Below, piece after piece: positions 43,882 through 52,711 of a DNA stretch of 64,000 nucleotides. The stretch is from Thermococcus camini (GTDB taxonomy: Archaea; Methanobacteriota_B; Thermococci; Thermococcales; Thermococcaceae): assembly GCF_904067545.1 (NCBI RefSeq), contig NZ_LR881183.1, positions 1,926,277-1,990,276 of the forward strand. Reading direction: 5' to 3'. The translations under genes and the position numbers were made by a program. Within the stretch, counting starts at the first letter, position 1, and every line of letters starts with the position of its first letter. A model generated the notes under the pieces. It was not told the DNA's origin, searched no databases, and saw only the letters and a list, made by a program, of their open reading frames with translations.

Positions 43882-46041
43882 TCAAACCCCCTCGCAGTAC
43901 TCGTCAAACCTCACAACGGCCCTCAGGCGGGCGGTTTCGACGTCGATTATGGGCACCCTGGCCGGTGTCGGCATGATGTTCACCATCTTCTGGAACTCCG
44001 TCTGAGCCTGCCAGGTTCCGGTGTTTATCAGAAAAACGCCGTTGTACATCTTGTACTCCATAACGTGGACGTGACCGGCCTGGAAGAGGTCGGGAACGGA
44101 TTCTATGACGAGGGTATCCTCCGAATCCGGTGCGACTGGCACCTTTTCCCCGAAGGTCGGCGCAAGGTGGCGGAGTTTGAGCAGGTCGAGCATGGCCTCG
44201 GCGGGCCTGTGGTGGCTCCTGTTCGGGATGAAGCTGACGACGTCCTCTATGCCGCGCCCGTGGGCAATGAGGAAGTCACGCCCATGAAGTCTCACGACGG
44301 CCGGGTTGCTTATCATGACGGCATTCTTGAGCTTTTTGAGAGGCCTGGTGTACTCATCGTAGAACCCCGGCTGGGGGAGGGCGGTTCTGGCGGCGTCGTG
44401 GTTGCCCGGGCCTATGAACATGGTTATGTGGTCGGGCACGTTGCGGAGAAAGTTCGCCAGGGCCTCGTACTGATCGAAGATGTCCGGAATGGCAAGCTCG
44501 TTGTACTGGCCGGGGTAGATGCCGATTCCATCGACGACGTCGCCGGCGATTATCATGTACTTTATCCTGCTCACAAGCTCCTCCTCGGCGCGGTTGTTCA
44601 CCTCACCGTTGAGCCATTCGAGGAAGCGTTCAAAGGCCTTCTCGCAGAACTTGTTGCTTCCCACGTGGATGTCGCTGAGGAGGATGGCGTAAACCTTCTC
44701 CTCGAGCGGAGGCTTGTCGCGCTTGAACTTCGGAACGTCCGGGAGGTAGATCCGGTTGGCAAAGAATATGCCCCTCCCCGAGTAGCGGCCGCGGAAGGCT
44801 ATAACGGAGTCGGGCATTATCTGGAAGAACTTCCTGCTCTCCTCGTTGTTGCGGTTTATGAAGACCTTGATTATCCCGGTGCTGTCCTCGACCTCAAACA
44901 TGAAGCCCTTGGCCGTCTCGCGCTTGCTGTTGATGAGACCGATGATGGTTACCTCCTCGTCTCCTCCCACATAGCCCAGCTTCCCTATGTCTATGACGCT
45001 GCCGAGCTCGGGGTTCTCGCGGAGGATTCTGCGCATCTTTCTCAGCCGGCTCTTGAAGTAGTCCGAGTACACCTTGACGATTATCTCGCCCTCCTTGCTG
45101 GCGGCGCTCTTGACCTTGGGAACCTCAAACTTCACATTCTTGACGTCGAAGACGAGCTCCCAGTCGTCAGGGATCTCCTTAGCCCGGTAAATGAAGCCCT
45201 CACGTGGGGCTATGACGATATCGCGGTAAACCGAGTAGCTTTTCTCTTCCTCCAGCACCTCATCGCCGACGTAGGCTATCGGCACCCCGTAGTCACCGTA
45301 AACTATCTTGGGCCTCACACCGTTCCCGTTCTCGTCGGAGTAGTAGGACTCATCGTCGGCGTAGCCGTTTCCGTTGATATATCCAGTTTCAGCAACAGGA
45401 ACCCCAGGGGAGCTACCCTCCAAAGGGTTATCTCCCGGAAGGACATCAGATCCGGAGGAACCCTCAGCCTCGACATCTTCCACAGGAAGCACCGCCTCGG
45501 AATCCCCATCCACACCCTCAACGAACCCCTCCGAAGAGACATCACCAGAGGAAGTTCCAGTGGAAATAGAACTCTTCCCCCCGAAGAAGTGGGATTCTTC
45601 TTGCTCCAATTGTGAAAAGGAAGGCGTTTTTAGGAGGACGTCTTCGGTATTTCCAGTGGAAATCAACGTGCCGGGCCCATCATCTGAATCTCCCTCGACG
45701 CCGCTAGCCTCTGCCGACGAAGCACTATCCCCGGCCGAATTCGCAGAATAAGATTGTTCTTCCCGATATCCAACCACAGCCCCAGAATCCTCAGAGGTCC
45801 CCTCACCAGTTTCGGTGGACGGCTGGGGCTCGAGGAGGGAGGGAACTTCTAGTGGAACCCCACCTTTCATCTCAAGGAACTCCTTCGCAATGGCGGAGTC
45901 TATTACAAAGACCCCTCTGGCCTTGGCGAACTTTATCAACTCGGCCAGCGTGAAGTCTTTCTTGTAGCTATCCACGAGAAGGTAGTAAGCCGAAGGAGTG
46001 ATTAGATAGCGATTGGCCATTAAATCCTCTATCAAACCCAT
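43882..46041 (-). CDS. polB: DNA polymerase D small subunit (DP1)
   Basis: Proofreading subunit of PolD. A 719-aa protein: N-terminal helical domain (1-70); a long acidic Ser/Gly/Glu/Asp-rich linker (~70-240) with no visible fold; an OB domain (~330-440); and an Mre11-like phosphoesterase with LLSDIHVGS, IAGDVVDGIG, GPGNHDAAR, LIAHGRG and QAGHVHV metal motifs. The linker codes ISTG twice with the mini-ORB sequence TTTCCACTGGAA (45555-45565 and 45651-45661). The ATG shares one base with the Orc1/Cdc6 stop. Confidence 0.96.
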   Translation of the reverse strand: MGLIEDLMANRYLITPSAYYLLVDSYKKDFTLAELIKFAKARGVFVIDSAIAKEFLEMKGGVPLEVPSLLEPQPSTETGEGTSEDSGAVVGYREEQSYSANSAGDSASSAEASGVEGDSDDGPGTLISTGNTEDVLLKTPSFSQLEQEESHFFGGKSSISTGTSSGDVSSEGFVEGVDGDSEAVLPVEDVEAEGSSGSDVLPGDNPLEGSSPGVPVAETGYINGNGYADDESYYSDENGNGVRPKIVYGDYGVPIAYVGDEVLEEEKSYSVYRDIVIAPREGFIYRAKEIPDDWELVFDVKNVKFEVPKVKSAASKEGEIIVKVYSDYFKSRLRKMRRILRENPELGSVIDIGKLGYVGGDEEVTIIGLINSKRETAKGFMFEVEDSTGIIKVFINRNNEESRKFFQIMPDSVIAFRGRYSGRGIFFANRIYLPDVPKFKRDKPPLEEKVYAILLSDIHVGSNKFCEKAFERFLEWLNGEVNNRAEEELVSRIKYMIIAGDVVDGIGIYPGQYNELAIPDIFDQYEALANFLRNVPDHITMFIGPGNHDAARTALPQPGFYDEYTRPLKKLKNAVMISNPAVVRLHGRDFLIAHGRGIEDVVSFIPNRSHHRPAEAMLDLLKLRHLAPTFGEKVPVAPDSEDTLVIESVPDLFQAGHVHVMEYKMYNGVFLINTGTWQAQTEFQKMVNIMPTPARVPIIDVETARLRAVVRFDEYCEGV
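45555..45661. promoter_or_regulatory. Two mini-ORB sequences inside the DP1 linker
   Basis: TTCCAGTGGAA at 45555-45565 and again at 45651-45661. The first is followed by ATAGAACTCTT, almost the same continuation as the long box at 48855 (ATGGAACTCTG). A degenerate third (TTCTAGTGGAA) lies at 45849. They fall in the part of DP1 with the least protein constraint. Confidence 0.5.
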
Positions 46042-47288
46042 CAGAGCAGCCTCCTCTGGCGGGACATGCTCACCGTCAGCATGGTCTGGAGCTGGGAATC
46101 GTGTCTGTATATGTTCTTGACCTTATAAGGTGTTACGTTGAGCCTTATCTCCTTCGTTCTCCCATACCTGCCCTTGCTGACGACCTTGGCGTTGATGATG
46201 CCGAGCATGTCGAGCTCGTTTATCAGGTCGCTCACGCGCCTCTGGGTGAGGGGTTCGAGGTCGATGTGGTCGCAGAGGGACATGTAAATCGAGTAAACAT
46301 CGCCAGTGTTGGCGGGCAGTTCGCCATTCTCGTCAAGGAGAACTATCGCGTAGAGCAGAACCTTCGAGTGGAGCGGAAGGGTCTTTATGACCTCCTCCAT
46401 GGTGTCCTGTTCTATCTTCTCCTGGGCCTTCCAGACGTGCCTCTCCGTGACCTTGCTCGCGCCCTCGCGCTCCGCTATCTCACCCGCAACGCGGAGCAGG
46501 TCAAGGGCCCTTCTCGCGTCGCCGTGCTCCCTCGCGGCCAGGGCGGCACACAGGGGGACGACGCCGTCGTCGAGAACGCCCTCGTTGAATGCGTCGCCGG
46601 CACGCTGCATCAGAATATCCCTGAGCTGATTGGCATCGTACGGGGGAAAGACAACCTCCTCCTCGCTCAGGCTCGAGAGGACGCGCGCATCGAGGTACTC
46701 CTTGAATTTAAGGTCGTTTGAGATGCCTATGATGCTCACCTTCGCAAGGCCCAGCTCGGTGTTTATCCTCGTGAGGGAGTAGAGGATATCATCACCGCTC
46801 TTTTTGATTAGCTTGTCAATCTCGTCGAGGACTATTATGACGAAGCGCTCACGGGCGTCGATTACCTCCTTAAGCCGCGCGTAAACTTCATCGGTGGGCC
46901 AGCCCACGAGGGGGACCTCAACGCCGCTCTCGTTCTTAAAGTGGTTCACGATGTTCGCCAGAACACGGTACTGGGTGTCCACTATCTCGCAGTTTATATA
47001 GATAACATCGACGGGAATCTGATACTTGTCGGATATCTTCTTCAGCTCCTCCGTAACGAACTTTATGGTGACGGTCTTACCGGTTCCGGTCTTCCCGTAC
47101 ACGAAAACGTTTGAAGGTGTCTCGCCGCGGAGGACGGGAACCAAAATATGCGCCAGCTCCTCAATCTGCTCGCGCCTGTGGGGGAGCTCCTTAGGGGTAT
47201 AGCTGTGCCTGAGAACCTCTTTATTCTTGAATATCTTCTTGGCGTGAAGGTACTTCTCGAAGATTGAATCAAGGTAATTGTCGTCCAT
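46041..47288 (-). CDS. cdc6: Orc1/Cdc6 replication initiator
   Basis: Origin-recognition AAA+ ATPase that binds ORB repeats and loads MCM. The 415-aa protein has Walker A (YGKTGTGKTVT), Walker B (VIIVLDEIDKL), sensor 1 (IIGISND), sensor 2 (GDARRALDLLRVAGEIAE) and a C-terminal winged helix (LTQRRVSDLINELDMLGIINAKVVSKGRYGRTKEIRL, as separate motifs). ATG 47288 follows GGTGGTGAG. A mini-ORB variant (TTCCAATGGAA, 47301-47311) lies just upstream, suggesting that the protein may bind its own leader. Confidence 0.95.
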   Translation of the reverse strand: MDDNYLDSIFEKYLHAKKIFKNKEVLRHSYTPKELPHRREQIEELAHILVPVLRGETPSNVFVYGKTGTGKTVTIKFVTEELKKISDKYQIPVDVIYINCEIVDTQYRVLANIVNHFKNESGVEVPLVGWPTDEVYARLKEVIDARERFVIIVLDEIDKLIKKSGDDILYSLTRINTELGLAKVSIIGISNDLKFKEYLDARVLSSLSEEEVVFPPYDANQLRDILMQRAGDAFNEGVLDDGVVPLCAALAAREHGDARRALDLLRVAGEIAEREGASKVTERHVWKAQEKIEQDTMEEVIKTLPLHSKVLLYAIVLLDENGELPANTGDVYSIYMSLCDHIDLEPLTQRRVSDLINELDMLGIINAKVVSKGRYGRTKEIRLNVTPYKVKNIYRHDSQLQTMLTVSMSRQRRLL

Positions 47289-47665
47289 GCTCACCACCCA
47301 TTCCAATGGAAATCCAGGTCGGTTTCGGATTATTGTACAAACTTAACCATGTGATCGTGCCAATAAGACTGTTTTAAGGCATTATTACTGGCTATCTTCC
47401 TAGGTTATTATTTATATTTTGGACATCAGACACACACTCCAGAGGAAGCACTGGATGCAGAGGAAAGCATAGATATTCGAGGTCAGGGGTTTATATGCGT
47501 TGTTGAACAGGGGGATGTAAAAAGAAGACCCGAAAATACCGGGCATAACCACGGAAAATGGGATGTTATTCTGCGTACCCTGCAGGAGATGGAGCCGGGA
47601 AGCCCCGCACAGGCGTCCCAGAAGCAGGAGAAACATTCAAAAGAGGGAGAACAAAAGGCCAGGGT
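47289..47665. other. Intergenic region upstream of cdc6
   Basis: About 375 bp. It holds the mini-ORB variant TTCCAATGGAA (47301-47311), a TATA-like GTTTATATGCG (47487-47497) on the plus strand and an ORB-like TCCAGAGGAA near 47446. Small frames at 47558-47640 are not convincing as genes. I see no RNA gene. Confidence 0.4.
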
Positions 47666-48289
47666 TTAAAAGTACCCAACGTCTTTCTCGTGACCCTCGA
47701 GGGACCGCTTCGCGGCAAAAACCTCATCCAGAAGGTTCTTCGCGTCCTCCACCGTCATGCCGACCTTAACGGTCAGAAACTTCATCAGCTCCTCCCTGCT
47801 GGCACCCCTATCCACCCTGTCTAAGACCATCCCGACTATACGATCGAATATCTCGCGGGCGAATGCCTCCTCAAGACCCAACGCGGAGACAGAGGAAAGA
47901 AGCCCAATGAGGAGTGCGGTGAGGGCGTCGTTGAACTCCTCCTTTCCCAGGGTCTTCTTATCCAGATCAACGCGGAGGTACACATCATCGTTCATTCCCG
48001 ACAGGGTGAACTTCATCAAGTGAACCTGGTCATTGAGGCGGAGGAGGGTGTGGTAAATCCTGAGCTTCTCGTCATTGGACATGGAGAACGTCTCGAGCCC
48101 CATAGGCACGAGAAGGTGAACAAAGCCCTCCGAGAATATCACAAGGAGAGAAAACGGCATTCTAGGGTGCTCGGCCAGATAAGTACCCGGTTGAGCCTCC
48201 CTGACTGACCAAGGGAGATCCACTATGTCCTGGGCGGTGTCGTCACCCTCCCGAAGCCACTCAAGAACCTGAACCTCGACGTCGTCCAT
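47666..48289 (-). CDS. YbjN-like protein, uncharacterised
   Basis: A 207-aa protein (MDDVEVQVLEWLREGDD…). The SLLVIFSEGFVHLLVPMGLETFSMSNDEKLRIYHTLLRLNDQVHLMKFTL region resembles the YbjN/type-III-chaperone-like fold; the C-terminal third is helical. ATG 48289 follows GGTGGT. In Thermococcales a gene of this type sits between cdc6 and radA. It borders oriC; any role in initiation is open. Confidence 0.6.
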   Translation of the reverse strand: MDDVEVQVLEWLREGDDTAQDIVDLPWSVREAQPGTYLAEHPRMPFSLLVIFSEGFVHLLVPMGLETFSMSNDEKLRIYHTLLRLNDQVHLMKFTLSGMNDDVYLRVDLDKKTLGKEEFNDALTALLIGLLSSVSALGLEEAFAREIFDRIVGMVLDRVDRGASREELMKFLTVKVGMTVEDAKNLLDEVFAAKRSLEGHEKDVGYF

Positions 48290-48576
48290 GGGAACCACCG
48301 AAGAATACTATGCGATATAGGTTAATTAACTTTGCACCTGAAACGGCACAGGCAAATTCAAGCATTCATTCTCCACAGGAAGCGAAGGGACTAAGGACCC
48401 ACCAATGTATAGTAAAATTTTAAGTTTGTAAATGTCCGGATGAAATCAAATGATCATTTCCACTGAAAGATGAATGAACTTAAATGGACACCAAAATACG
48501 GACAGTGATGGACTGTTTTGGACATTCTGAATAAACAAAAGTATTTTGCGATTAAGATAAGTTAAACACTTCAATA

Positions 48577-48604
48577 CCCCCTGGGAGTTTTGTTTCCAGT
48601 GGAG
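48577..48604 (-). promoter_or_regulatory. Long ORB box 1
   Basis: Read on the minus strand: TCCACTGGAAAC, then AAAACTCCCA and GGGGG. It is an inverted partner of box 2. Expected Orc1/Cdc6 binding site. Confidence 0.7.
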
Positions 48605-48854
48605 CAGGGTTTTGGTTACTCTCCTAGTTTTTTGTTTTGAGGTGTAAACTCTCCCGTTTTCTTTTAAACTTTTTGTATTTATATGTTTTCATGAACAATG
48701 TTCATAAAATTCCCAAATTTTCAAATAGTAATGAACGAAAGACTATAAAATTCAGGGTGTGTTTTTAAATCTGCCTATTTGATGTTCGAAATATCGTTTA
48801 TAAACACTTCTTTCATCTTTTCATCCTTGAAAATCCGTCCATCTCCAAAACCGG

Positions 48855-48884
48855 GTTCCAGTGGAAATGGAACTCTGGGGGGTC
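48855..48884 (+). promoter_or_regulatory. Long ORB box 2
   Basis: GTTCCAGTGGAAAT, then GGAACTCT and GGGGGG. The repeat core and the G-string at the same relative place as in box 1 mark it as a full-length ORB, in the opposite orientation. Confidence 0.7.
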
Positions 48885-48914
48885 TTTCAGATGGACATCG
48901 AAAAAGACCTTTGT

Positions 48915-48925
48915 TTCCACTGGAA
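48915..48925 (-). promoter_or_regulatory. Mini-ORB at oriC
   Basis: TTCCACTGGAA; on the minus strand it reads TTCCAGTGGAAACAAAGG, the mini-ORB with its usual AC-AAA continuation but without a G-string. Confidence 0.6.
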
Positions 48926-48996
48926 AAAATACTCCATCCGTGGACTTCTCGGGGCAGTGATGATAGTTTTTTAAAACCTCCTCTGTAGCTTATATC

Positions 48997-50013
48997 ATGA
49001 TTCCGGTACCACTCGTGCGAAGACTTCTCCAAATGAAGGCCAAGGTCAGCAGGAACCGGCTCCTTCAAATAGCGGCACTTGTGCTTATACTGGCGGCTAT
49101 CTTCGCGTTACTTTTCATGTATTTCGAGAACGTGGGCTTCTACACTGCCTTTTACTGGGCGGTCATAACGATGGCCACAATTGGATACGGTGATATAACT
49201 CCCCAAACCGAAGCCGGCCGCGCGGTGGCTATGGTCGCCGCCGTTGCTGGAATCTCGACTTTTACCGCCCTCGTTTCCATTCTGGCCGAATACTTCATTT
49301 CATCGTCTCTACGGAGGATGATGGGAATGCACAGTGTTAGATATTCCGGACACTACGTGATAATCGGCCGCGGGAGCAGCATACCAAGCTGCGTGAGCGA
49401 ACTCACCTCCGCGATTTCCAGTGGAGAGGTGGAGCTGAAACCTATAGTGGTGGTCTTCCCCGACGAGGGCGAGCGGAAGAAGGTCGAGCTTCCAGAGGAA
49501 GTGGAGGTTCTCATCGGCGACCCGACGAATCCGGAAACACTGGAACGCGCCCACGTGAAGGAGGCTTCCTACGTCATCCTTGCCCTCGAGGACGACTCGA
49601 AGTCCGTCTTCACTACCCTCATGGTGAAGCGCATGTCTAATGCGAAGGTATTCGTCGAAGCCCTCCGCGGGGAGAGCCTGGAGCTGCTCAAGGGGGCTGG
49701 AGCTGACAGGGTGATACTCAGCAGGAGCCTCGCGGGAAGGCTTCTCGCCAGTTCCGTTTTCGAGCCGGAGGTGGTGGACGTCATAGACGACCTGACCACA
49801 GCCTCAGGCGGCTACGATATCACCGTTCTGGAGCGGAGGGACCTGTGGGGCGTCCCCTACGTCGAGGCCATGAAACGCCTCCACGGTGAAGGCTACTTCC
49901 TCCTTGGTTATTACAAGGAAAAGCCCGTTCTCAATCCTGTGCTGAATGAGGAGATTCCCGAAGGGTCAAAACTGATCGTCATAAAGCCCGGCTCTTCCAG
50001 TGGAAAAAGGTGA
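48997..50013 (+). CDS. Potassium channel with RCK/TrkA-N domain
   Basis: A 338-aa K+ channel. Two membrane helices flank a pore with the selectivity filter TIGYGD (about residues 67-72). The cytosolic TrkA-N (RCK) domain starts near HYVIIGRGSS and is followed by a TrkA-C-like part. It has MthK-type architecture. It is likely leaderless: TTTTTTAAAA at ~48966 is about 28 nt before ATG 48997. Its coding sequence carries mini-ORB-like sites at 49416-49426 and 49995-50005, the latter coding the Ser/Gly tail. Confidence 0.9.
   Translation: MIPVPLVRRLLQMKAKVSRNRLLQIAALVLILAAIFALLFMYFENVGFYTAFYWAVITMATIGYGDITPQTEAGRAVAMVAAVAGISTFTALVSILAEYFISSSLRRMMGMHSVRYSGHYVIIGRGSSIPSCVSELTSAISSGEVELKPIVVVFPDEGERKKVELPEEVEVLIGDPTNPETLERAHVKEASYVILALEDDSKSVFTTLMVKRMSNAKVFVEALRGESLELLKGAGADRVILSRSLAGRLLASSVFEPEVVDVIDDLTTASGGYDITVLERRDLWGVPYVEAMKRLHGEGYFLLGYYKEKPVLNPVLNEEIPEGSKLIVIKPGSSSGKR
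49416..50005. promoter_or_regulatory. Mini-ORB sequences in the K+ channel gene
   Basis: TTCCAGTGGAG (49416-49426) and TTCCAGTGGAA (49995-50005, followed by AAAGG). The second is an exact core match, at the last codons of the gene. Confidence 0.4.
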
Positions 50014-50200
50014 TGGTGTTGCTTTATTCTCTTTATGTCCAACCACATGCCCTATTTAAGCGCAGAACGGTTTTTCGGGGGCATGAATTTGAAATGTTCC
50101 TCAACAACGGGCAGTTTCATCTGCCGCTCCACCGGAAAGAAAAGTATATAACCCTTCGGCTTTTTACCCCTATGGAAGGTAGCCGTAGCGGGTGAGTGAG

Positions 50201-52711
50201 ATGCCAAGGAAGAAGAAGGCTGAGGATGAAATAAAAGAGCTCGAAGAGTTTGAGGAGCTCGATGTCGTTGAGGAGTCCCCATCAAGCTCAACCAAGAAAA
50301 AGAAGGAGAAAGAGATAAAGACCCTTGAAGACCTCCCAGGCGTTGGTCCAGCCACTGCTGAAAAGCTCCGCGAGGCTGGTTACGACAGCATCGAGGCCAT
50401 AGCCGTTGCCTCTCCGATGGAACTTAAGGAGATCGCGGGAATAAGTGAAGGTGCAGCGCTCAAGATAATCCAGGCCGCAAGGGAAGCGGCAAACATAGGG
50501 ACCTTCATGCGCGCTGACGAGTACCTGGAGAGGAGGAGCACCATCGGCAAGATCTCCACTGGAAGCAAGAGCCTCGATAAGCTCCTCGGTGGTGGTATTG
50601 AGACCCAGGCGATAACAGAGGTCTTCGGTGAGTTCGGTAGCGGGAAGTGCTTTGCCAAGGATACAAAAGTTTACTACGAGAACGATACTCTCGTTCACTT
50701 TGAGACTATTGAGGAGATGTACGAGAAGTACAGGGCCTTGGGCGGGGAAGTTTCCTTCGACACTGGCTTTGCGGTTCCACTGGAAACCGTCAGCGTCTAC
50801 ACTTTTGATCCTGCGACCGGAGAAATAAAGCGCACTAAGGCATCTTATCTGTATCGCGAGCGGGTCAGGAAAATACTTCATCTTAACCTCTCTCGGGGAC
50901 GGAAGCTCAGGATAACCGCAGTTCATCCTGTTCTTGTCTTTAGAAACGGCCTTCAGTGGGTTCGTGCTGGGGAGCTCAGGGAAGGCGACGTTGTGGTCGG
51001 GATCCGCAGGGTTCCTGCAAATTCCCTGGAAGTTCCAGAGGCGAAGGCGTACTTCCTCGGTCTCTTTGTCGCTGAGGGTACATCCAACCCGCTCTCGATA
51101 ACAACGTCCTCGGAGAAGCTCAGGGATTTCATAGTGGAGTTCATCAGGAAGTACGACGGCTACGACCCCACCGTTGAGATGAGACGCGGCCTTTACCGGA
51201 TACTCCTTAGGAAGAAGACCGCCGAGTGGCTCGGCGGCATCGCGGCGTCAACGGCCGAGACAAAATCCGTTCCAGAGGAAATACTCAACGGTGACGAGGG
51301 TACGATAGTAAGCTTCCTCGCCGGCTACCTCGACGGTGATGGCCACATTGCGGATTCTCACGTCGAGTTCACTACAAAGAGCAAAGACCTTATGGAAGGC
51401 ATCGTTTTCCTGCTGAAGCGTCTTGGAATCTCCCCCTCGGTCTCAGAGAAGGTCATAAACGGAGAAACCTACTACAGGATTTTCATAACTGGTGAGGACA
51501 GGGCTTCCTTCAGCTCTGTTCTTGAGGTTTCCCTCATCAAGAACTCGGAGCTACCCGGGGGCGGCGTTGGTCGTTATCCCCCAGCAGTGGCCAGGTACCT
51601 CTCTGCCCTTTACTCTGAATTCAGGTTGCCAAAGAGGGATGGTGAAACTGCATACCACATTCTGACACGCAGTAAGAACGTCTGGTTCACCGAGAGAACC
51701 CTTGAAAGGATCTCTGACTACTTCAGGGATGCTCTCAACAGGCTTGAACTCACAAAGAAAGCAATTGAAAACGGGGAGAAACCAGAGCTTCCGTTCCCGT
51801 GGACGGTTCTCAGGAAGTATGGCTTTACCGATAGGCAGATTTCGAACTACCGTACGAGAGGACTTCCAAAGCGCGAACCCCTTGGGGATAGGGTGGTCTC
51901 GGCTCTTCTGAGTGAGATTGAAGAGCACGAGAGGATTGCCAGAAAAGCCATTGAATTTATTGAGCTCGTCAAAAAGCTGGAGTTCTACGAGGTAAAGTCC
52001 GTTGAACTGGTTGAATACAACGACTGGGTCTACGACCTCGTTGTTCCAGAGACACACAACTTCATAGCCCCGAACGGCCTCGTCCTCCACAACACCCAGC
52101 TGGCGCACACCCTCGCGGTGATGGTTCAGCTCCCGGGGGAGGAGGGAGGCCTTCACGGCTCTGTCGTTTGGATAGACACCGAGAACACCTTCAGGCCGGA
52201 GAGAATAAGACAGATAGCCGAGGCCAGGGGCCTCGACCCCGACGAGACGCTCAAGAACATTTACGTGGCCAGGGCCTTCAACAGCAACCACCAGATGCTC
52301 CTAGTCGAGAGGGCCGAGGAGATAATCAAGGAGAAGGCCGAGACGGACAGGCCGGTCAAGCTCCTTGTCGTCGATTCCCTAATGGCCCACTTCAGGAGCG
52401 AGTACGTCGGCAGGGGAACGCTGGCGGAGAGGCAGCAGAAGCTGGCCAAGCACCTCGCCGACCTGCACCGCATTGCTGACCTCTACGACATAGCTGTCTT
52501 CGTCACCAACCAGGTACAAGCCAAACCGGATGCCTTTTTCGGCGACCCGACGAGGCCCGTCGGCGGCCACATCCTCGCCCACAGCGCGACCCTTAGGATT
52601 TACCTGAGGAAGGGCAAGGCCGGCAAGCGCGTCGCCAGGCTCATAGACAGCCCGCACCTTCCAGAGGGTGAGGCGATCTTCAGGATAACCGACAAGGGCG
52701 CCGAGGACTGA
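50201..52711 (+). CDS. radA: DNA repair and recombination protein RadA, with intein
   Basis: Archaeal RecA/Rad51 recombinase. The precursor is 836 aa: N-extein 149, intein 482, C-extein 205, giving a mature protein of 354 aa. The N-terminus has an acidic/Lys-rich leader and an HhH domain ([17 protein letters not shown]). Walker A (GEFGSGK|TQLAHT) is cut by the intein after Lys 149; Walker B is [19 protein letters not shown] (core LLVVDS), and the L2 region is [17 protein letters not shown] 50201 follows GGGTGAG. nucS follows 35 bp later. Confidence 0.97.
50555..50785. promoter_or_regulatory. Mini-ORB-like sequences in radA
   Basis: TCCACTGGAA (50555-50564, in conserved ISTGSK codons) and TTCCACTGGAA (50775-50785, within the intein, followed by ACC). 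The first may be coincidence, since the protein fixes these codons. Confidence 0.3.
50648..52093 (+). mobile_element. RadA intein with LAGLIDADG homing endonuclease
   Basis: A 482-aa in-frame intein in the P-loop. It starts with Cys ([12 protein letters not shown]), carries block B ([14 protein letters not shown]), ends in VLHN, and the next extein residue is Thr: a complete set of splicing residues. Two DOD endonuclease motifs are present, [10 protein letters not shown] and [12 protein letters not shown]. So it may still home. Its codons are more A/T-rich than the exteins. A mini-ORB core (50775-50785) lies inside it. Confidence 0.93.

Follow-up and report, generated by a model that had tools for sequence, protein, structure and literature searches.

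The segment 48457-48924 of the window is, with a probability of about 0.9, the single chromosomal replication origin (oriC) of Thermococcus. As an origin, it is of a known and ordinary archaeal kind. Comparison with relatives suggests that new anatomy lies inside it, namely a conserved promoter-like unit placed between the two long origin recognition boxes (ORBs) of Thermococcaceae origins. The window is the whole stretch of DNA that was analysed, 64,000 nucleotides corresponding to positions 1,926,277 to 1,990,276 of the 2.02-Mb single-contig chromosome of Thermococcus camini (G000:C1:1926277-1990276). Named relatives of its cdc6, at 96-97% identity, likewise identify it as a Thermococcus; a cdc6 scan of named genomes gave 80 loci, the first 23 in Thermococcales drafts, no well-known type strain of that order among them, and the others in further archaea, chiefly haloarchaea.

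The two long ORBs are placed in opposite orientation with their G-strings directed outward. ORB-L, on the left side (48577-48604, minus strand), reads CTCCACTGGAAACAAAACTCCCAGGGGG from 48604 to 48577, and ORB-R, on the right side (48855-48884, plus strand), reads GTTCCAGTGGAAATGGAACTCTGGGGGG over 48855-48882. Both contain the dyad core TCCA-S-TGGAAA, an AACTC segment and a string of five or six G, which is the composition of the boxes of Orc1/Cdc6-type origins, and a repeat-finding tool pairs 48578-48615 with 48845-48882 at 74% complementarity. The 250 bp between the boxes (48605-48854) have an A+T content of 68.8%; no other 250-bp stretch in the window is poorer in GC than the one beginning at 48585. 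Inverted ORBs flanking A+T-rich DNA are the arrangement expected of a Thermococcales oriC, and the core is presumed to be the unwinding element. The earlier note had described two long inverted boxes around about 250 bp of T/A-rich DNA, and their coordinates, cores, AACTC segments and G-strings were all recovered. Its count of two holds for the long ORBs but not for the boxes as a whole: a mini-ORB, TTCCACTGGA, is found at 48915-48924, starting at +59 from ORB-R, and a mini-ORB-like site, TTTCCACTGAAAG, at 48457-48469 on the plus strand, starting 122 bp to the left of the ORB-L 26-mer.

In the T. camini genome, a 24-base ORB pattern with at most 2 mismatches has a single match, which is ORB-R, and a 26-base pattern with 3 mismatches matches ORB-L and one unrelated site. 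The inverted pair recurs in 84 of the 94 Thermococcaceae genomes compared, where its 26-mers stand 249-273 bp apart; the 84 genomes are mutually related and therefore do not amount to 84 independent events. These near-unique matches and the recurrence of the inverted pair place it above chance. The ten genomes without the pair (G023, G040, G041, G044, G054, G070, G081, G082, G083 and G091) are all fragmented drafts, and only G044 is more than 90% complete. The comparison set consists of 85 origin rows from the 84 genomes, distributed over the genus groups g1 to g6; L299 was dropped as a duplicate of L176, and G051 is counted twice (L063 and L294). The orientation of five Thermococcus rows (L058, L063, L064, L065 and L070) was misjudged from a decayed palindrome; they are handled correctly in the 85-row counts of the promoter unit and stand reversed in the figures for site enrichment, the left block, the +59 mini-ORB and the g1 strand scores. 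With these rows reversed, the mini-ORB at +59 or +60 from ORB-R is found in 47 of 57 g1 rows and 4 of 6 g5 rows, and was not found in the g2, g3, g4 and g6 rows.

The skew of the chromosome points to the same site. The earlier note had inferred that this was the origin of the chromosome and named a skew inflection far from it as one refuting outcome; the inflection was found at the site, at the resolution of 20-kb blocks, and the inference is supported. All 12 right-arm blocks, including one that extends over the origin, have positive keto skew, and 11 of the 12 left-arm blocks have negative keto skew. Both keto and GGGT skew change sign at oriC and about 1 Mb opposite, and among 20 rotations their largest difference is obtained with the boundary at oriC. 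The skew boundary of a Thermococcales oriC is thus seen with keto and GGGT skew and is not significant with GC skew, which by itself fails to distinguish the two arms (p 0.29) and is uninformative. Within the window, the cumulative minima fall at 38.4 kb (keto) and 53.7 kb (GGGT), 5-10 kb off the expected 48.7 kb; given these displaced minima and the non-significant GC skew, the resolution of the skew is coarse. On a 10-kb grid, GGGT skew prefers 1.92-1.94 Mb over the true 1.97 Mb.

To the left of oriC lie cdc6, DP1 and DP2, and to the right a potassium-channel-like gene, an intein-bearing radA and nucS. The intein that interrupts radA (window 50192-52711) carries LAGLIDADG homing endonuclease domains. 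The cdc6/orc1 initiator gene (46041-47306, minus strand; Cdc6_C, E 1e-34) is linked to the origin, about 1.27 kb from ORB-L. The earlier placing of the boxes beside cdc6 is correct as to the neighbourhood and not as to adjacency: the left box lies upstream of the gene at that distance, and a 210-aa ORF (47666-48298, minus strand), with a weak YbjN match (E 7e-5), stands between oriC and cdc6. A match to this ORF was found neither in the Pyrococcus regions nor in part of the Thermococcus regions searched. The origins of P. abyssi, P. furiosus, T. kodakarensis and T. barophilus likewise have inverted long ORBs, mini-ORBs and an A+T-rich core near cdc6 and radA (G011, G086 and G064, with homologous ORB pairs, are presumed to belong to these species); the ORF that parts oriC from cdc6 distinguishes T. 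camini from them.

In genus g4 (L282-L291) oriC and cdc6 are unlinked, the gene being 619 kb from the ORB pair in G077 and 511 kb in G075. The ORB pair of this genus adjoins the 210-aa ORF and radA, and a match to the channel gene is also found in 8 of its 10 rows. In both G077 and G075, where cdc6 is 0.5-0.6 Mb away, the skew shift goes with the ORB pair rather than with cdc6. Keto and GGGT skew are both best at the ORB pair in G077; the best boundary in G075 is at 420-510 kb and its ORB pair at 513 kb. Linkage to the initiator gene is no requirement for a Thermococcales oriC, and the skew in these two genomes indicates the ORB module, and not the place of the initiator gene, as the mark of the origin. 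The promoter unit described below travels in g4 with the ORB pair rather than with cdc6.

Alignment of 53 Thermococcus origins reveals conserved blocks other than the ORBs. Between the ORBs these are a box, AAACTCTCCC, an A+T box and an ATGAACA-N-TGTTCAT palindrome. In the T. camini genome they take the form of a promoter-like unit that faces the cdc6 side: a BRE/TATA 16-mer, AAAACATATAAATACA (48674-48689, minus strand, reading leftward), a conserved box, GGGAGAGTTT (48646-48655, minus strand), and ATGAACA, here half of the palindrome ATGAACAATGTTCAT (48691-48705) beside the BRE. The BRE/TATA matrix was learned from 170 upstream regions of this genome, seeded with the TATA consensus; the 16-mer scores 11.0 bits, above the 9.97 median best score of those regions, and so agrees with the genome's own consensus. 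A second, overlapping candidate at 48674 reaches 12.0 bits in this genome but is not the conserved one. The TATA element would place the box at the predicted leftward transcription start, given the TATA-to-start distance of about 23 bp reported for T. kodakarensis (PMC4247193). As an exact match, the 15-mer palindrome is found only once in the genome; its closest counterpart at another place carries 2 mismatches.

Across the 85 origin rows, a promoter of at least 9 bits is present in 75 and falls below 9 bits in 10, the start box is within 2 mismatches in 82, and ATGAACA is within 1 mismatch also in 82. The three elements occur together in 71 of 85 rows (71 of 84 genomes); none of 1700 dinucleotide shuffles reproduces the combination. 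Every one of the 85 rows has 43 or 44 bp between promoter edge and box, the search having allowed 36-51. Among the 72 rows passing the promoter and box cut-offs, the SD of this spacing is 0.33 bp, against 2.25 bp for the spacing from box to ORB-L, and the ATGAACA half-site begins 1 bp beyond the promoter edge in 71. Such rigidity is what is expected of a TATA-to-start distance. In the g1 origins (with the five rows reversed) the in-register score has a median of 12.1 on the minus strand versus -1.9 on the plus strand. All 8 Pyrococcus rows retain the promoter and the box, and 7 of the 8 also have ATGAACA with no more than 1 mismatch. A right half, TGTTCAT, with at most 1 mismatch is found in 63 of 85 rows; its loss in all 8 Pyrococcus rows and several Thermococcus rows indicates that the full palindrome is not required everywhere. 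On these grounds the unit is probably a real promoter.

Two other products of leftward transcription were considered and rejected. A structured RNA over 48656-48570 is not supported (z -0.23, with 71 of 200 shuffles folding as well), and a search of 47300-49000 against Rfam (E up to 0.1) gave no match. The idea of a small ORF conserved within the predicted transcript was discarded, as the longest ORFs vary in length and start over 80 of the 85 rows, the 5 rows flagged minus being left out. The unit is not named in the available parts of PMC5663688, PMC11005403, PMC4010727 and PMC2643942. A search of mainly open-access literature found no description of a promoter or palindrome in the origin, a scope that leaves room for an earlier account.

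The strongest competing explanation regards the unit as an ordinary gene promoter with a long leader, which serves the 210-aa ORF, with a leader of about 350 nt, or cdc6 where the ORF is missing, and which lies between the ORBs by chance. The in-origin promoter does face the ORF and cdc6. Moreover, a promoter of at least 9 bits between the nearest leftward 210-aa ORF and ORB-L is seen in only 0 of 3 g2, 1 of 10 g4, 1 of 5 g5 and 0 of 1 g6 rows; the ORF mostly has no proximal promoter in these groups, and there the in-origin promoter may simply serve it. On the other hand, the ORF has a nearer promoter of at least 9 bits in 20 of 33 g1 rows and in the window, where the candidate scores 10.0 bits. 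Among rows lacking the ORF, a nearer promoter belonging to cdc6 itself is seen in 8 of 8 Pyrococcus and 16 of 17 g1 rows; the space between the two ORBs nevertheless retains a site in 8 of 8 and 12 of 17, respectively, counting any site of at least 9 bits and not just the in-register one. A separate cdc6 promoter together with a persisting in-origin site argues for a role at the origin, although in these genomes the two may be tandem promoters of cdc6. The gene-promoter explanation is a serious one, with the odds somewhat against it, and an origin-control role for the promoter is put forward with the same reserve, at less than even odds.

A second explanation treats the unit as DNA of the initiation complex that serves for protein binding and melting. 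The AAACTCTCCC box would be a core-less ORB tail for the initiator-specific motif of Orc1, TATTTATA the first melted segment, and the palindrome the target of a nucleoid protein, like Sulfolobus UBP on ucm. The AACTCT of the box equals part of the ORB-R tail, and the unit lies within the unwinding region, as ucm does (PMC12141716). However, the box is held rigidly to TATA and not to ORB-L, as the two spacing SDs indicate, and the order of BRE and TATA fits one strand only, so that this explanation is unlikely. Sulfolobus ucm, which oriC1 requires for its activity and to which UBP binds (PMC12141716), is likewise a conserved non-ORB element between inverted ORBs and may be taken as a precedent for one; the likeness is of position only and does not imply relatedness. 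UBP is reported to have over 300 genomic sites, compared with the one exact copy of the palindrome in T. camini.

The earlier note also called the origin active. Its status as chromosomal origin stands, and the word active needs a caveat from the relatives, where the homologous site gives a stationary-phase peak and can be deleted. G011 is presumed here to be T. kodakarensis and G086 to be T. barophilus, in part from the agreement with the peak positions. The ORB pair of G011 (1,711,369-1,711,673) is within about 0.6 kb of the published T. kodakarensis marker-frequency peak at 1,712,000, and that of G086 (right ORB at 1,673,156) within about 2.2 kb of the T. barophilus peak at 1,671,000 (PMC11005403). 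At the homologous site of relatives, a marker-frequency peak is reported for the stationary phase, and for T. kodakarensis the available text reports no log-phase peak (PMC11005403, PMC5663688). The homologous origin can be deleted in T. kodakarensis and T. barophilus, so it is dispensable, and it is described as used mostly toward stationary phase (PMC5663688, PMC11005403). A dormant or relic origin, kept for other reasons while recombination starts replication at many sites, would agree with the tolerated deletions and the missing log-phase peak, but it is very improbable, as the skew in three chromosomes and the constancy across six genera need long use, and stationary-phase peaks exist in relatives (PMC11005403).

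The preferred reading, a chromosomal origin with a promoter in its core, starts from what is read directly in the sequence, namely the ORBs, their spacing, the skew and the conservation and rigidity of the promoter unit. By analogy with known archaeal origins, Orc1/Cdc6 would bind the two long ORBs with opposite polarity, the A+T-rich core that they enclose would melt, and MCM would be loaded there for bidirectional replication. The core would then be more than plain unwinding DNA, as it holds a rigid promoter unit facing ORB-L. A putative dimeric DNA-binding protein on the ATGAACA-N-TGTTCAT palindrome may control RNA polymerase in the core. Transcription that crosses ORB-L and the core, or the presence of a bound polymerase complex, could help to open or to block the origin. 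Origin use would perhaps be coupled to growth phase or cell state through the in-core polymerase and the palindrome factor. Transcriptional activation is known in bacterial origins, such as lambda ori and E. coli mioC/gidA. There, as would be the case here, the activity of a promoter within or close to the origin could influence its opening; the machinery is bacterial in those systems, and the promoter is a predicted one in T. camini. The most extensive form of this proposal is rather unlikely as a whole: that Thermococcales origins carry a built-in regulated promoter between the ORBs, where a dedicated factor, bound to the palindrome and perhaps also to the phased ATGNACA array, turns transcription across ORB-L and the A+T-rich core on or off and thereby decides between oriC and recombination-dependent replication. 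For the question of what preserves an origin that can be dispensed with, and how growth phase alters its use, the added anatomy offers specific bases to mutate.

The phased array belongs to the conserved block left of ORB-L, which consists of a mini-ORB followed by repeats of the type AATGaACAt.aaTGtaCAt; in T. camini its half-sites, of the ATGNAC(A) type (48473-48526), are degenerate. Relative to ORB-L, the block starts at -121 to -123 in all 8 Pyrococcus rows and in 67 of the 77 other rows, 60 of these 67 at exactly -122, with the five rows reversed. On the same basis, and summed over genera, ATGNACA/TGTNCAT sites number 198 left of ORB-L and 140 between the ORBs, against 23 and 14 expected from shuffles. 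A genome-wide regulon of the motif was rejected, as none was seen in 464 kb of this genome: clusters of three ATGNACA within 75 bp were absent, and ATGNAC formed 8 clusters of three, two of them within the origin. The array element has been seen before, as the third Thermococcaceae motif of Ori-Finder 2, AATG[ACT]ACA[AT]A[AGT]ATG[TA][TG]CATT, listed there as an ORB motif (PMC4164010, Table 1), matches by eye the first two units of the array left of ORB-L. The available part of that paper mentions neither the constant -122 position of the array nor the separate palindrome in the centre.

Other ORB-like and initiator-like sequences were also observed. An ORB-like GTTCCAGTGGAAATAGAACTCTTCCCCCCG lies within the DP1 gene (window 45554-45583) and resembles an ORB that four Thermococcales are reported to have in DP1 (PMC2643942). 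In the channel gene, TCCAGTGGA cores at window positions 49417 and 49996 recur at similar offsets in many relatives. In one relative (G010:C1:115922-117180), the match to cdc6 is split into two parts, and one of them contains an in-frame stop. A second, distant Cdc6 homologue (28-44% identity) is found in G017:C2, G051:C129, G086:C2, G093 and others; some of these homologues are on the second contig of two-contig assemblies and could perhaps mark plasmid replicons.
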